Part shown: piece by piece, positions 23,159 to 47,717 of the stretch | How positions within the stretch are numbered: the first letter of the stretch is position 1 | How the letters are laid out: every line of letters begins with the position of its first letter | Position numbers and translations under genes: made by a program | Notes under the pieces: generated by a model | The model's database searches: none | What the model saw: only the letters and a program-made list of their open reading frames with translations | Told to the model about the DNA's origin: nothing | DNA from: a virus | Virus record (IMG/VR): IMGVR_UViG_3300045240_000091 | Location: 1-47,717 of that record | Reading direction: 5' to 3' (one strand) | Length of the DNA: 47,717 bases

Positions 23159-23279
23159 GTGAATTGCGGCCTTCCCACGCGCCAAATCGACCAGCACGCC
23201 AGTGGCCATGGCGTCAACGTCCTGGCCAAGTGCTTGAAATGATTGTGATATCATGCCCTATCCCACAAGCATCTGACGT

Positions 23280-23314
23280 CTATCCACCCAGCCCACCCAC
23301 CCGGCCCATCCACC
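23280..23314. repeat. Three 13-bp-phased CTATCCACC-type sites
   Basis: CTATCCACC starts at 23280, CCACCCACC at 23293 and CCATCCACC at 23306, exactly 13 bp apart. They are the complement of the GGTGGATAG pairs at 40516/40529 and 40748/40761, which have the same 13-bp step. This spacing recalls tandem excisionase sites. The middle copy matches 7 of 9 bases. Confidence 0.6.
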
Positions 23315-24509: not shown

Positions 24510-25229
24510 TTAAATTGCTAAGTGTGCTGACCGTGCCTTGCGCATGCCAAAGAGAGACATAAAACCAAATCCCAATGCCAACATGGCCCATATGCTGGGC
24601 TCGGGAACGCCGCTCTCCATCGCTTGGTTGAAGCCCGTGATGCTGCCGCCGGAGCGCAGCACCAGTGCTGCTCCCTCTGTCATCGAGAAGGGTGCTGCAG
24701 CATCGAACGCCGTGACCCGCGACCCAGCGAAGCTGTCCGGGTCGGTCAGCGCATGCCCCGCCACGCTCTCCAACAGCGTCCCTGGCGTGTTCGAGGAATT
24801 CGCCCCTTGCCGATCGAGGGGATCGGCGAAGAAGCTTAAGCGGCTGTCGGGCGCGCCGACATTGGCGTTGAACGTCAGCGAGCCCGAATTGTTGATGAAG
24901 GAGACGGGTGCGGTGAAGCCGGTGTCGGACGCCAAGAGCGTGACCGTGATCGGAATCCCAAGCGTGTCCTCGATGTTCGCGCTCGAAAGCTGCAGGGCAT
25001 CGACCTTGCCGAACGTCGACTGCGCCAGCGTGAGCTGGACGAACGCGCCCCCGACCGTCTGGTCGATCGTCAACAGGTTGTTCGCGCCGCCGCTCACGTC
25101 GCAGGAGAGCTGACCGTCGAAGCAGGTGAACGTCGAGGCCCCGACGCCGATCGAGAGCTGCAGCCTCGCTTCGGCTCCGCCGGCCATCAGCGCCAGCGCG
25201 CTGCTTAAAACCAAGAATCGCTTGAGCAT
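24510..25229 (-). CDS. PEP-CTERM exported protein (cargo gene)
   Basis: The 239-aa protein has a signal peptide (MLKRFLVLSSALALMAGGAE-A) and a beta-rich middle with two Cys (36 and 43). Its C-terminal sorting signal is V-P-E-P-S at 208-212, hydrophobic IWAMLALGFGFMSLFG to about 228, then basic RKAR. This is the PEP-CTERM tripartite signal recognised by exosortase, a bacterial export/surface system usually tied to exopolysaccharide. No exosortase is in the window, so the host would supply it. The gene stands alone: a hairpin follows it and a divergent gene lies upstream. GAGGGA lies about 9 nt before the ATG. It is probably expressed in lysogens and alters the host surface (inference). Confidence 0.88.
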   Translation of the reverse strand: MLKRFLVLSSALALMAGGAEARLQLSIGVGASTFTCFDGQLSCDVSGGANNLLTIDQTVGGAFVQLTLAQSTFGKVDALQLSSANIEDTLGIPITVTLLASDTGFTAPVSFINNSGSLTFNANVGAPDSRLSFFADPLDRQGANSSNTPGTLLESVAGHALTDPDSFAGSRVTAFDAAAPFSMTEGAALVLRSGGSITGFNQAMESGVPEPSIWAMLALGFGFMSLFGMRKARSAHLAI

Positions 25230-37748: not shown

Positions 37749-40127
37749 ATGATCAAGTGTCACGTCGATTATGTCCGGGACTACGCGAAAAACCTCGTTC
37801 CCGTAATTCCCCACGACGCGACGCTTTCCCCAAACTCAAAAATCGACCCCTTGAACCGCGGCAAGGTGCCGGGGCAACGCAAGGCTGACGGGACATGGTA
37901 CGGCGGCTGGAAGGACCTCGGCAACGCCACGATGGCGCTGGCCAAGAAGTGGGACGAGTGGGGCGCTTTCATCGGCAACCGCACCGGCCTGGCCGGCGTG
38001 ATCGCGCTCGACGTCGACCTGACCGTGCGCGAGGACGCCGAGCGGGTGCTGGCGCTCGCTTATGGAATCTTCGGTCGGAACCTTAGCGTTCGGCGCGTCG
38101 ATCACCCGGCGCATGCGAAACTGCTCATCTGCCTGCGCCTCGAAGGACCGATGCCGGCGTCGTTCAACCTCGACGTCGTGCAGAACGACGGCACGCATGG
38201 CCAGATCCAGTTCCTGGGGCCGGGCCGATATTTCAACATGCATGGCGTCCACCCTAAGCGCCTCAAGCCATACATCTGGGAAAACGACCCCGCCGACGTT
38301 CCCCTGGTGTCCATCAACCTGGCCGAGTTCGAAGCGTTCTGGGTCGCGGTCGGGCAAGATTTCGAAGTCACCCACCGGCCTCGCCTGCATGCGTTCAACC
38401 AGGTTCAGCGCGAGCCCGAACGCTGCACGCCGGAGGAGATGGAGGCGCTGATCGAGCTGATCCCCAACGACGAGACGTTCGAGCCTTACGACAACTTCAT
38501 CACCATGGGTGCGGCGATGTATGGCGCAAGCGCCGGCGCTGACTGGGGCCGGGTGCAATGGCTCGCCTGGTGCGACCAGGTTGACCAGCCACAGGACCGC
38601 AAGCCAGAAATTTTTTGGGATTCAATGCAGCAAGCGCGCGTCGGCGCGGACGTGCTGCGCATGTTCGCCAACGTCCGCCAACCACTCGAAATGGCGCGCC
38701 GGGACTTTGCCGACCCGCCGATCGAGGAGCTCGAGCCTGAGTTGGTCGCGCAAGCTGACGCCGACGCCGACATAGCGAAAACGACCCTCGATGAATGGTG
38801 CTTAGTCGGCGGGTCTGATTTCTATTTGATCAAGCGCCCGCGCTTGCCTTTGACGTCGACCGCTTTCGGCATGGTGCATGCGCGGCGTGAGAAGGCGCTG
38901 AAGCGCGCGCTTGGCGGCGATAAGCGTCTTTCGCTCGGCAAGCTATTCGCCAGGCGCAGCCAGAACCTGGTTGACGACATCGTGCATGAGTCCGGCCAGC
39001 CGCGCTTCATCGAGCGTGACGGGCAGCGCTATCTCAACCTCTGGAGCCCACCACCGCGGCCCCACCAGGGACGGCCGATCGACCTCAAGGTGATCGATTT
39101 CTATCGCGACCTGGTCGAGTTCGTTCTCGGCTCGCCGGAGGAAACCGCGCTGTGGCTGAAGTGGCATGCGTGGCTCTTGCAGAACCCGGACAAGGCTCCA
39201 GGCTGGCATTGGATCGTGCAGACCGGCCAGGGCCGCGGCAAAGATTTCATCCTGCGGCCGATTGGGCTCGCGCATGGCGACGACTACACGCCGATTCACC
39301 CCAAGGATCTGTCCGCTCCCTACAACGACTATGCCGAGAAGCATCTGATCTCGGCCAGTGAGATGAAGGAGCGGGGCCGCGATGACGCTTACGTGATGCT
39401 GAAGGCGATCACTTCCGGCACGCCGCAGGTTCCAATTCGCATCCCCTACCGCAAGCGCTACCTGGCGGCCAACGTCGCCGCCTTCGTCGTCTTTTCCAAC
39501 GAAGAACACCCGCTGAAGATCGATCACGACGATCGCCGCCTGCATGTTGTGTCCAACTTCAGCGACGAGCGCCGATCGCCGGACTATTATGCTCACGCGC
39601 TCCGGCTCCTGAACGAGCACTGGGCGATGATCGGCGAGCATCTCCTGCTCCTGCCGCTGACCGACGCCGACGTTGATCTCCTGACCGGCAATGCGCCCAA
39701 GAGCGACGCTAAGGCAGAGATGGCGGAGCAGATCGCCGAGAGCGCCATTCTCGACATCATCGGCGAAATCGAGAGCGACAAGCCGCCGCCGAATTACCTG
39801 CCGGTCGCGACCACCGGCGATGTGATCGAGTGGCTCAAGCATGAGCATCTCCGGCCGCACGAGCTGCCGAGCCGGCAGGAGCTGCCGAGCCTGCTCTACC
39901 GGCTAGGGGCGCGCCCTTTGAACCCGAACCGCCGCAACCCAAAGCGGGCTGAGCCCATCCAGGGCGCGCGCCTGTGGCGACTGGCCAAAACCTGGGTCGA
40001 GCAGGGACGCGAGTGGAACCTTGAATCCGTCACCCCCGCCCGGCTGGCCAAGCTCTATTCCGACCGCGCCATGCCGCCGGCGACCAAGGGCGATTTCAAG
40101 GTGGTCGACGAGGAAGGTGAGATATGA
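37749..40127 (+). CDS. Primase-helicase (Prim-Pol N-terminus, DUF5906-type helicase)
   Basis: The ATG at 37749 is used; TTGs upstream at 37722 and 37731 are possible. The 792-aa protein begins with a bifunctional primase/polymerase domain whose acidic pair is D-V-D at 88-90 (GVIALDVDLT), with GQIQFLGPGRYFNMHG further on. The second half is a DUF5906/SF3-like helicase with Walker A GQGRGKDF (493-500), in which the usual Thr/Ser is Asp, as in part of this family. KHLISASEMKE and FVVFSNEEHPLKI fit Walker B and sensor parts. It probably makes primers and unwinds the fork. Confidence 0.88.
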   Translation: MIKCHVDYVRDYAKNLVPVIPHDATLSPNSKIDPLNRGKVPGQRKADGTWYGGWKDLGNATMALAKKWDEWGAFIGNRTGLAGVIALDVDLTVREDAERVLALAYGIFGRNLSVRRVDHPAHAKLLICLRLEGPMPASFNLDVVQNDGTHGQIQFLGPGRYFNMHGVHPKRLKPYIWENDPADVPLVSINLAEFEAFWVAVGQDFEVTHRPRLHAFNQVQREPERCTPEEMEALIELIPNDETFEPYDNFITMGAAMYGASAGADWGRVQWLAWCDQVDQPQDRKPEIFWDSMQQARVGADVLRMFANVRQPLEMARRDFADPPIEELEPELVAQADADADIAKTTLDEWCLVGGSDFYLIKRPRLPLTSTAFGMVHARREKALKRALGGDKRLSLGKLFARRSQNLVDDIVHESGQPRFIERDGQRYLNLWSPPPRPHQGRPIDLKVIDFYRDLVEFVLGSPEETALWLKWHAWLLQNPDKAPGWHWIVQTGQGRGKDFILRPIGLAHGDDYTPIHPKDLSAPYNDYAEKHLISASEMKERGRDDAYVMLKAITSGTPQVPIRIPYRKRYLAANVAAFVVFSNEEHPLKIDHDDRRLHVVSNFSDERRSPDYYAHALRLLNEHWAMIGEHLLLLPLTDADVDLLTGNAPKSDAKAEMAEQIAESAILDIIGEIESDKPPPNYLPVATTGDVIEWLKHEHLRPHELPSRQELPSLLYRLGARPLNPNRRNPKRAEPIQGARLWRLAKTWVEQGREWNLESVTPARLAKLYSDRAMPPATKGDFKVVDEEGEI

Positions 40128-40309
40128 ACAAGCCCGAGGTCAAGCGCGTCGGCTACACGATCAGCGAAGTGGTGGAGATGACCGGCCGCAACCGGACCAC
40201 CATCCACCGATGGCTGGAGCGCGGCGTGCTGCGCGCCATCCAGGTGCCCGGCGGCAAGCGCATGGTGCAGGCGGCGTCGCTGGAGCGCCTGGTCAGCGGG
40301 CAACGATGA
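40124..40309 (+). CDS. Excisionase-like HTH protein, copy 1
   Basis: The ATG overlaps the previous stop (ATGA). The 61-aa protein has a MerR/excisionase-type winged HTH: KRVGYTISEVVEMTGRNRTT followed by IHRWLERGVLRAIQVPGGKR. A second copy at 42044-42262 is nearly the same from KRVGY to the end. The pair flanks the integrase. The likely role is control of excision or transcription near the 13-bp-phased repeats. Confidence 0.82.
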   Translation: MNKPEVKRVGYTISEVVEMTGRNRTTIHRWLERGVLRAIQVPGGKRMVQAASLERLVSGQR

Positions 40310-40524
40310 TTAACGATCAGGTTTGGAAAGATGCCGCTGGAGCCACAATAATCACCCTGCGTGAGGAGAACGCGCGGCTGCGGGAGGCGCTTAACGAGGC
40401 GACTGCCGAGCTGATCTACCTGCGCCAATATGGCAAGGATGGAGCTGTATGGTGGGCCAATGAGAGCAAAAACGTTTGGCGTGATAAAGCCCGCGCCACT
40501 CTCAAGGACGCGCCTGGTGGATAA
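40306..40524 (+). CDS. Small coiled-coil protein
   Basis: The ATG overlaps the previous stop (ATGA). The 72-aa protein MINDQVWKDAAGATIITLRE has a heptad helix (ENARLREALNEATAELIYLR) and a Trp-rich end. The gene's last codons GGT GGA TAA are the first of the GGTGGATA repeats. It is the last gene of the early operon. Function unknown. Confidence 0.68.
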   Translation: MINDQVWKDAAGATIITLREENARLREALNEATAELIYLRQYGKDGAVWWANESKNVWRDKARATLKDAPGG

Positions 40525-40537
40525 GCCGGGTGGATAG
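40516..40537. repeat. GGTGGATA pair, 13-bp step
   Basis: GGTGGATAA (40516-40524) and GGTGGATAG (40529-40537) start 13 bp apart. The first also codes the end of the upstream gene. The pair matches that at 40748-40769 and, inverted, the sites at 23280-23314. Confidence 0.7.
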
Positions 40538-40633
40538 CTCCAAACCCGTGCAACATCAGCTGCCGTTTTCGGCTTCTTTTCAATGTCTTAGCCACACATA
40601 CTGACGCCATCGCCCATGGCGTTCTAGGGTTGG

Positions 40634-40661
40634 GTGTAGGCTTTGATATGCCTACACTTTT
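40634..40661 (+). terminator. Rho-independent terminator of the early operon
   Basis: GTGTAGGC (40634-40641) and GCCTACAC (40650-40657) form a perfect 8-bp stem with an 8-nt loop, followed by TTTT (40658-40661). It separates the replication genes from the integrase. Confidence 0.78.
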
Positions 40662-40747
40662 CGGCCAAGCCGTTGAAATGTCAGGCCACAAGCCGGAGTT
40701 GGGAGTTGCGCAGTGTTGCACAACACCCTATCTTATGGCCTCACTCT

Positions 40748-40769
40748 GGTGGATAGGATAGGTGGATAG
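40748..40769. repeat. GGTGGATAG pair, 13-bp step, at the integrase SD
   Basis: GGTGGATAG occurs at 40748-40756 and 40761-40769, 13 bp apart. The second copy supplies the AGGTGG SD of the integrase ATG at 40771. A protein bound here would block integrase translation or transcription. Confidence 0.7.
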
Positions 40770-40770
40770 A

Positions 40771-41976
40771 ATGTTGAAACCCTCTGACGTGATGAAGCTG
40801 CCGGAAGGCCGGCACTGTGACGGCGACTACCTCTATCTCGCGGTCGTAGGCGCGAGCCGATCGTGGGTCGTGCGCACCCCGATGATCAACGGCAAGCGCC
40901 GCGAAATCGGACTCGGCTCGGCCGCCAAGGTTTCGCTGGCGCTGGCCCGCAAGGGCCGCGACGCCCTCATCGAACAATTGCGCAACGGCGTCGACCCCGT
41001 CGCCGAGCGGCAGGAGGCCAAGGAGGCCGCGGCCAAGCGCAAGACCTTCGCCGAGGCGGCCGAGGCGGTGATCGAGAAGAACCGCGCCGGCTGGAAGACC
41101 TCGCTTGAGGGGCGCTGCTCGACGCTCGACCAATGGCGTCGCGACGTCGAGATCACCTGCAAGCCGATCGCGCGCAAGCTCCTCGACGAGATCACCATCG
41201 CCGACATCAAGGGCGTGCTGCAGCCGTACTGGGACCGCGGGCAGCTTGACAGCGCTTCAAGCTTGCGTAAGCGGATCGAGGCGGTGCTCGACTACGCAAC
41301 CGCGCATGGCTGGCGCGCCGGCGACAATCCGGCGTCATGGAACATCTTTAAGCATCTGTGGCCGGGTGAGAAGCCCCAGGACGTGCATCACGCCGCGTTG
41401 CCCTGGCGCGACGCGCCGGAGTTCCTGCAGCGCTTGCGCCAGTCGGATGCGACCAGCGCTCGCCTGCTTGAGTTCATCATGCTGACCGCCGTCCGCTCGA
41501 ACGAGGCGCGCGGCGCGACCTGGTCGGAGATCGATCTCATGGCCCGCGTGTGGACGATCCCGGCAGCGCGGATGAAGATGCACCGCGACCATGACGTGCC
41601 GCTCAGCGAGCCGGCGGTGGCGCTCCTGCGCAGCCTGGAGAAGACCGGCGAGTTTGTGTTCGTTGGCGGGCGCGGCGCAGACAAGGCGAAGGGCAAGCCG
41701 ATGCGCAACGCCAGCCTGCATGCGCTGATGAAGCGCTCGGCCGGCGAGGCGACCACGCATGGGTTCCGCTCTTCGTTCCGCGACTGGTGCGGCGAGACTG
41801 GCGTCGATCGCGAATTGTCCGAGCGCTGCATCGCCCACAAGGTCGGCAGCGACGCCGAGAACGCTTACGCCCGCTCCAGCCTGATCGCCCGCAGGCGGCC
41901 GGTCATGGAAGCGTGGGGCGCGTTTGTCGACGGCGCTCGCGACAACGTCGTGGCGTTCGTGCGTCAGGTGGCGTGA
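40771..41976 (+). CDS. int: Tyrosine integrase, P4 type
   Basis: The ATG at 40771 has AGGTGG at 5-nt spacing; an upstream GTG at 40762 is less likely. The 401-aa protein has an N-terminal DUF4102-like arm (KLPEGRHCDGDYLYLAVVGA, GKRREIGLGSAAKVSLALAR), a core-binding domain and a catalytic domain. The active site residues are Arg 242 (TAVRSNEARG), His 330-x-x-Arg 333 (HGFRSSFRDW), His 356 and Tyr 366 (AENAYARSS). It integrates the phage into the host chromosome and marks it as temperate. The att site is not identified. Confidence 0.95.
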   Translation: MLKPSDVMKLPEGRHCDGDYLYLAVVGASRSWVVRTPMINGKRREIGLGSAAKVSLALARKGRDALIEQLRNGVDPVAERQEAKEAAAKRKTFAEAAEAVIEKNRAGWKTSLEGRCSTLDQWRRDVEITCKPIARKLLDEITIADIKGVLQPYWDRGQLDSASSLRKRIEAVLDYATAHGWRAGDNPASWNIFKHLWPGEKPQDVHHAALPWRDAPEFLQRLRQSDATSARLLEFIMLTAVRSNEARGATWSEIDLMARVWTIPAARMKMHRDHDVPLSEPAVALLRSLEKTGEFVFVGGRGADKAKGKPMRNASLHALMKRSAGEATTHGFRSSFRDWCGETGVDRELSERCIAHKVGSDAENAYARSSLIARRRPVMEAWGAFVDGARDNVVAFVRQVA

Positions 41977-42043: not shown

Positions 42044-42262
42044 ATGCGCAAAACTGAGTATAAAAACGAGCGCAGGTACGACAACATCAAGCGTGTTGGC
42101 TACAGCCTTACTGAAGTAGCGATAATGACCGGCCGCAACCGCACCACCATCCACCGCTGGCTGGAGAAGGGCGTGCTACGCGCCATCCAAGTCCCTGGCG
42201 GCAAGAGGATGGTTCAGGCTGACTCGCTTGATCGTCTCATCAACGGGCGTCCACAAAAATGA
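42044..42262 (+). CDS. Excisionase-like HTH protein, copy 2
   Basis: From ATG at 42044 the product has 72 aa, with a longer charged N-terminus (MRKTEYKNERRYDN) than copy 1. From IKRVGYSLTEVAIMTGRNRT onward it matches the protein at 40124-40309 almost residue for residue, including HRWLE.GVLRAIQVPGGKRM. The DNA is also similar, but many third bases differ, so the duplication is old or came from two sources. It is a good candidate for the excisionase beside the integrase. Confidence 0.82.
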   Translation: MRKTEYKNERRYDNIKRVGYSLTEVAIMTGRNRTTIHRWLEKGVLRAIQVPGGKRMVQADSLDRLINGRPQK

Positions 42263-47552: not shown

Positions 47553-47717
47553 CTATTTCGCTCCCTTGTGGTAGGTGCCGCTCACTCCCTTCGGCCCATA
47601 ACCGAGCTGAACCCGAGCACCATCTGCCAAGCCCCCCGCGGCCCCCGCCGCCTCCATCGAAGCTTCGTCGGGGAAAATGTAAACCTGCCCGCCCCCCCCC
47701 CCCCCCACCCCCCCATA
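47553..47717 (-). CDS. 3' end of the junction-spanning gene (second copy)
   Basis: The frame of the gene at 1-1266 is repeated here. Residues QVYIFPDEASMEAAGAAGGL and the last 15 codons (GPKGVSGTYHKGAK then TAG at 47553) are present. Only 47553-47693 is reliable. The stop lies 1 bp before the start of the 665-aa gene. Confidence 0.85.
   Translation of the reverse strand, partial: YGGVGGGGGGQVYIFPDEASMEAAGAAGGLADGARVQLGYGPKGVSGTYHKGAK
47598..47693. repeat. Terminal overlap, right copy
   Basis: This is identical to 1-96. After 47693 the copies diverge: here poly-C, at 97 onward a mixed GCC-rich sequence coding Gly. Confidence 0.9.
47694..47717. other. Poly-C low-complexity end, probable assembly error
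   Basis: The last 24 bases are nearly all C, whereas the matching place at 97-120 reads mixed ACC, GCC and TCC triplets. The poly-Gly codons make this a hard place to sequence. These bases should not be treated as genome. Confidence 0.8.

Follow-up and report, generated by a model that had tools for sequence, protein, structure and literature searches.

The locus studied here raises the question why the short motif GGTGGATA(G/A) is repeated with a constant 13-bp step in front of a phage integrase gene and again, on the opposite strand, in a remote part of the same genome, which protein would recognize it, and what the remote copies would be for. The window, that is the whole stretch of DNA analyzed, is the complete virus record IMGVR_UViG_3300045240_000091 of 47,717 bases; we interpret it as the circular genome of a phage, since positions 1-117 and 47598-47717 form a mutual repeat of 117 bases at 94%. 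The final bases of the contig form a C-rich run, which resembles an assembly or sequencing error. Genes for a large terminase, a portal protein, a tail fibre, DNA polymerase A, a DUF5906 protein and a Cro/C1-like repressor were recognized in the window, and a megablast search of positions 20001-44000 against the phage collection returned zero matches.

All seven copies reported by the first-pass annotation of this DNA were recovered at their positions, four near the integrase gene (int) and three at the remote place:

40516, 40529, 40748 and 40761, plus strand: copies of GGTGGATA near int, in pairs with a 13-bp step
23280-23288, minus strand: remote copy, exact 9-mer
23293-23301, minus strand: remote copy, 7/9
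23306-23314, minus strand: remote copy, octamer at 7/8

Taken alone, the octamer is not enriched in the window (25 matches at up to one mismatch against 17.8 expected, with at least 25 in 8 of 100 shuffles). A genome-wide scan for the 13-bp pair, which the annotation had proposed as a check, found it at up to two mismatches in these three places only of the 47,717 bp, the reversed control pattern giving 0; at up to three mismatches, four matches stand against one for the reversed control. Furthermore, a dyad, ACGCCA-N7-TGGCGT, comes after two of the clusters, at a distance of 75 bp from that at 40516 and of 74 bp from that at 23280. This feature is absent from the earlier annotation, and the only perfect copies of the dyad in the window are those at 40604 and 23196. 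A pattern of arm pair plus dyad, derived from the first place and picked after both sites were already known, matches the second with 2 mismatches of 28, compared to 5 in the best of 200 dinucleotide shuffles. Chance origin of the repeats was rejected on the rarity of the pair, the rarity of the dyad and this last comparison. DnaA boxes were set aside as well: the motif is one to two positions off the DnaA box, and the core dyad accompanies the repeats.

The cluster before int delimits a putative lambda-type attP (40516-40769), in which the elements follow in the order arm pair, IHF-like site, core dyad, IHF-like site, arm pair and int ATG:

40516-40537 (40516-40524 and 40529-40537), plus strand: left arm of attP, GGTGGATA(G/A) in two copies, proposed integrase arm-type sites
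40578-40590, plus strand: IHF-like site TTTCAATGTCTTA, 12/13 to the consensus, 26 bp before the core
40604-40622, plus strand: putative attP core dyad ACGCCA-TCGCCCA-TGGCGT, proposed 7-bp overlap at 40610-40616
40666-40678, minus strand: right-side IHF-like site, 12/13
40706-40719, plus strand: TTGC-N6-TTGC, a 10-bp direct repeat, candidate excisionase site
40748-40769 (40748-40756 and 40761-40769), plus strand: right arm of attP, GGTGGATAG in two copies, of which the second overlaps the ribosome-binding region of int
40771-41976, plus strand: int, a tyrosine integrase whose domains are arm-binding, central and catalytic (PF13356, PF22022, PF00589)

The region thus adjoins an integrase with arm-binding and catalytic domains (recognized, with the central one, as Arm-DNA-bind_3, Phage_int_M and Phage_integrase), its arm motif flanks the core on both sides, the core dyad is present, and IHF sites between arms and core are found as sequence matches to the consensus WATCAANNNNTTR. 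These IHF-like matches weigh little as evidence; 33 of 2000 random 53-bp windows reach at least 12/13. The columns of the integrase catalytic motif (R, HxxR, H and Y) are invariant in a 7-row integrase alignment. For lambda, IHF sites are described as lying between the arm-type and core-type sites, and the overlap as 7 bp long; our region resembles lambda attP in having arms on both sides, IHF-like sites between, inverted core sites, a proposed 7-bp overlap and a separate arm-binding domain in Int (PMC4880445).

A search with the integrase revealed four viral contigs (G001-G004) carrying integrases 78-88% identical to it, and a search with a 5-row integrase alignment returned the same four viral loci and one 24% match. 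The attP comparison was performed on the aligned int-upstream regions of these contigs and the window (n = 5). The arm-to-core distance is 75 bp in all five, the dyad reads ACGCC(A/G)-TCGCCCA-TGGCGT with the proposed overlap TCGCCCA identical throughout, and the left IHF-like site scores 12/13 at an equal offset in each; the right one reaches 12/13 in four of the five and 11/13 in G003. The two arm pairs are separated by 231 bp in G003 and by 232 bp in the other four, and the left pair is present throughout, though weak in G002 (5/16 mismatches). The TTGC repeat with its 10-bp step is present a single time in the window; all five attPs have it at an equal offset (one base off in G003), and it was not found at the window's remote site. 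As the first-pass annotation had seen in noting that one cluster overlaps the integrase SD, the copy at 40761-40769 covers the ribosome-binding region; it stops two bases short of the ATG at 40771, which suggests that Int may repress its own gene. The att region of the KplE1 prophage lies likewise before int, with arm sites overlapping the expression signals of intS and resulting in self-repression, according to the part of the source available (PMC2951348).

The remote cluster, judged by its layout, would be a half-attP; its organization is that of attP's left half, and its 7-bp overlap has another sequence:

23280-23314, minus strand: second-site arm copies, exact at 23280-23288, degenerate at 23293-23301 and 23306-23314
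23227-23239, minus strand: IHF-like site TTTCAAGCACTTG, 12/13, 25 bp before the core
23196-23214, minus strand: second-site core dyad ACGCCA-TGGCCAC-TGGCGT, overlap at 23202-23208

This site lies 17 kb from attP and reproduces its spacing nearly to the base (arm to core, 74 vs 75 bp; IHF-like site to core, 25 vs 26 bp). No second arm pair was found beyond its core, so that arms on both sides, as in a complete attP, are lacking and the layout corresponds to the left half. An att hybrid (attL/attR) of the same attP was rejected for 23196-23314, the overlaps being TGGCCAC and TCGCCCA; exchange between attP and the second site, which would invert 17 kb, is unlikely, because 3 of the 7 overlap bases differ in the window and 3 or 4 among all the sequences compared. 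A scan of the remote site with a sigma-70-type consensus found no promoter-like sequence.

The second site is known in six sequences, namely the window, G001, G003, G004, L083 and L091; they are not independent, as five share a common backbone and several were found by dyad search. All 16 positions of the dyad halves plus the GTTG before them are invariant, compared to 12 of 66 in the overlap, spacers and flank together; this comparison leaves out the IHF stretch (5/13 invariant), and its Fisher value is purely descriptive, given the dependence among the sequences. The arm-core distance is 74 bp in the window, G001 and G004, 73 bp in G003 and 63 bp in L083 and L091. The overlap is TGGCCAC in four sequences, TGGCTAT in G003 and TAGCCAC in G004, and never TCGCCCA as in attP. 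The IHF-like match at -25 scores 11/13 in G001, 13/13 in G003 and 12/13 in G004. The arm copies are degenerate in several sequences, with 3 mismatches per 16 in G004 and L083 and 5 in L091. In G004 the element, a piece of about 110 bp (L064:3171-3277), is inverted between unchanged flanks, which disfavors a strictly promoter-bound role.

With the arm-plus-dyad pattern at up to six mismatches, both attP and the second site were matched in the window, G001, G003 and G004, attP and its echo in G002 (a 14.9-kb fragment), and the second site in L083 and L091; extra matches at 4-6 mismatches were register-shifted or P'-arm echoes of these sites, and G008, L096, L097 and L120 gave no match. G003 carries both sites on an unrelated backbone: its terminase (phrog_2) and portal (phrog_1216) differ from those of the window (phrog_38 and phrog_156), and besides the integrase it shares with the window few short matching stretches, mostly in the tail-fibre region. 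Two other contigs, L097 and G008, resemble each other at 91% over 3.4 kb and have a backbone in common with the window (terminase 74%). In L097 no second site was found directly after the gene which precedes it in G001, L083 and L091, and in G008 no integrase relative was found in 30 kb of sequence; as both contigs are partial, this is no more than suggestive of second-site loss going with integrase absence. The PEP-CTERM motif (PF07589) was observed, in a phage, in a 239-aa protein encoded at 24510-25229 on the minus strand of the window; G004, L091 and L097 encode relatives of this protein, and G001 a C-terminal piece.

Over the viral contigs, the arm-pair pattern alone matched 38 stretches, one of them (L047) being a part of G004, and arm pair plus dyad matched 20, eight of which lie in the contigs already known (four attPs, four second sites). 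The other 12 were judged to be chance matches, having no second arm copy at up to three mismatches and no IHF match better than three mismatches. Scanning viral sequences for the dyad TTGACGCCA-N7-TGGCGT gave at least 119 stretches, and no arm pair (up to five mismatches) was found at the 76 other viral dyads among the matches listed; one armless dyad (L082) and two armless core matches (L079, L080) were set aside as chance. Relatives of the integrase in genomes were found in 5 of 14 candidate stretches, the best at 42%. An attB search covered 397 genomes of one order, picked solely because this best relative belongs to it, and 98 of them matched at up to two mismatches; the seven stretches inspected lie inside genes read from translation as cobO-like, argG-like and histidine kinase, and no attB was found in this search.

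Among five phages with distantly related integrases, Caulobacter phage DMCA and Rhodobacter phage RcSalem have arm pairs, stepped by 12-13 bp, at either side of the int-upstream region, and their motifs differ from that of the window: GACTTAGG in DMCA (step 12, with two left copies and three right ones) and TATGGTCT in RcSalem (steps 12 and 13), the latter found by eye, as the arm-pair script demanded equal steps. The arm-pair search gave no such double pair in the tested regions of Alfacinha3, pCB2047-A and Mwe-Yong1. Neither DMCA, of which 49.9 of 51.8 kb were covered, nor the 67.7 kb of RcSalem showed a second arm-pair cluster.

Considering these data, we regard it as rather probable that the GGTGGATA(G/A) copies are arm-type sites of Int, that the four before int are the attP arms, and that the 23280 cluster is a one-armed docking site for Int and IHF which does not recombine with attP. 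This explanation rests on the observed layout, spacing and conservation; from them we infer binding of Int and IHF, and the downstream effect is our guess. At the second site, Int would be joined by IHF and would span arm and core in the manner of a lambda att half-site, the DNA between them being bent by IHF. Docking and regulation tied to the Int level is the leading guess as to purpose: Int might occupy the stretch that precedes the late genes, or the site might pair with attP. Docking is favored by the arm pairs enclosing an array of IHF-like site, core and IHF-like site directly before an arm-binding integrase, by the recurrence of this plan with other motifs in DMCA and RcSalem, and by the retention of the second site in six sequences, including the unrelated backbone of G003. 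It is weakened by the degenerate arms (several second sites and the left attP arm of G002) and by the three of five distant phages in whose tested regions no arm double pair was found; a regulatory role in particular is weakened by the empty promoter scan and the inverted element of G004. More tentatively, and short of thinking it probable, we propose that Int has a second target in its own genome, one-armed and att-like, which persists across unrelated backbones and serves a non-integrative purpose, either Int-level-dependent control of the stretch before the late genes or the resolving of phage genome multimers.

We lean towards docking, with a resolution site as the next candidate. Exchange of lambda attL with attL is known, and the second site could similarly recombine with its own copy, so that Int would resolve genome multimers or circularize redundant ends. 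As both partners would always carry an identical overlap, the latter might drift, and this would suit an overlap unlike that of attP and variable among relatives next to an invariant Int-contact dyad; the second site is laid out as a bent one-armed att site, and a resolution site would tolerate the inversion seen in G004. Nevertheless, the overlap (4/7 invariant) is more conserved than the right flank (3/41), though a free overlap should drift, and we consider self-recombination unlikely, if worth keeping in view. Still less probable is an inactive remnant, perhaps left by a former att hybrid junction: the site is one-armed as such a hybrid would be and its arm copies are partly decayed, but its dyad halves have stayed invariant in six sequences among drifting flanks, it has been retained in G003, and the 11-bp loss in L083 and L091 amounts to about one helical turn.

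A further explanation, put forward by the first-pass annotation, is that the excisionase-like HTH proteins use the repeats as operators and couple excision to late-gene control. The genes in question flank int and are 79% alike over 162 nt:

40124-40309, plus strand: hth1, excisionase-like HTH protein of 61 aa (HTH_17, phrog_66)
42044-42262, plus strand: hth2, second excisionase-like HTH protein of 72 aa (phrog_66)

Their excisionase-like character is borne out by the match to phrog_66, 'excisionase and transcriptional regulator'. In G001, G002 and G004 both HTH queries matched the upstream copy only, and therefore the downstream gene may be a recent duplicate. Besides the position of these genes, the example of phage 186 speaks for HTH operators, as its excisionase Apl binds both att and the distant pR-pL control region, one recombination protein thus having sites at two places; in the part of the source available, however, Apl recognizes direct repeats with a 10-11 bp step and no core dyad, and here the step is 13 and an integrase core dyad accompanies the repeats, so that the 13-bp spacing does not agree with the excisionase type (PMC7498355). 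Moreover, the attP core has the motif on its outer flanks, left and right, the remote site carries the dyad, which is an integrase feature, and the TTGC repeat inside attP appears to be a better candidate for the excisionase site, because its 10-bp step agrees with that of the 186 excisionase. Loss of the repeats in a relative keeping the HTH genes, which the annotation itself had named as speaking against its proposal, is nearly seen in L120, where a 54% identical HTH gene and an attP core occur without the 13-bp arm pair; G003 is uninformative here, its contig beginning 90 bp before the arms. We therefore regard HTH operators as very improbable. The likeliest binder of GGTGGATA would be the arm-binding domain of the integrase, since the motif stands outside the core, to its left and right, and since another motif fills the same layout in two of the five distant phages. 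What stands of the annotation is the single protein at both places: the clusters share one organization and probably one protein, most likely Int and not an HTH protein. No stand-alone arm-binding regulator was found among the window's 680 stop-to-stop frames. In RcSalem, a 71-aa protein, gp100 (L131:27786-28001), is annotated as a stand-alone Arm DNA-binding domain; no relative of its sequence was found among these frames. Least probable of all, the second site would serve integration into a different chromosomal target whose overlap is TGGCCAC. In favor of this, the core is complete with an overlap of its own, but a second arm, which lambda-type integration requires, is lacking beyond the core, and the overlap differs between close relatives.

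Phage integrases are usually described as acting at attP and attB, and some of them shut off their own gene. The phage studied here differs from lambda in having a putative additional one-armed site elsewhere in its genome, and we know of no second one-armed site in lambda; none is reported for KplE1 in the part of the source available (PMC2951348), and our search of titles and abstracts found no phage genome described as having a second, one-armed site for its integrase. If the docking explanation is true, a conserved one-armed site distant from attP would be another address of Int in the phage genome, and it would make a small testable system of one protein, IHF and two DNA fragments. The putative attP, with its arms, core and overlap, would provide a plain definition for this uncultured phage group and a basis for seeking its chromosomal target.
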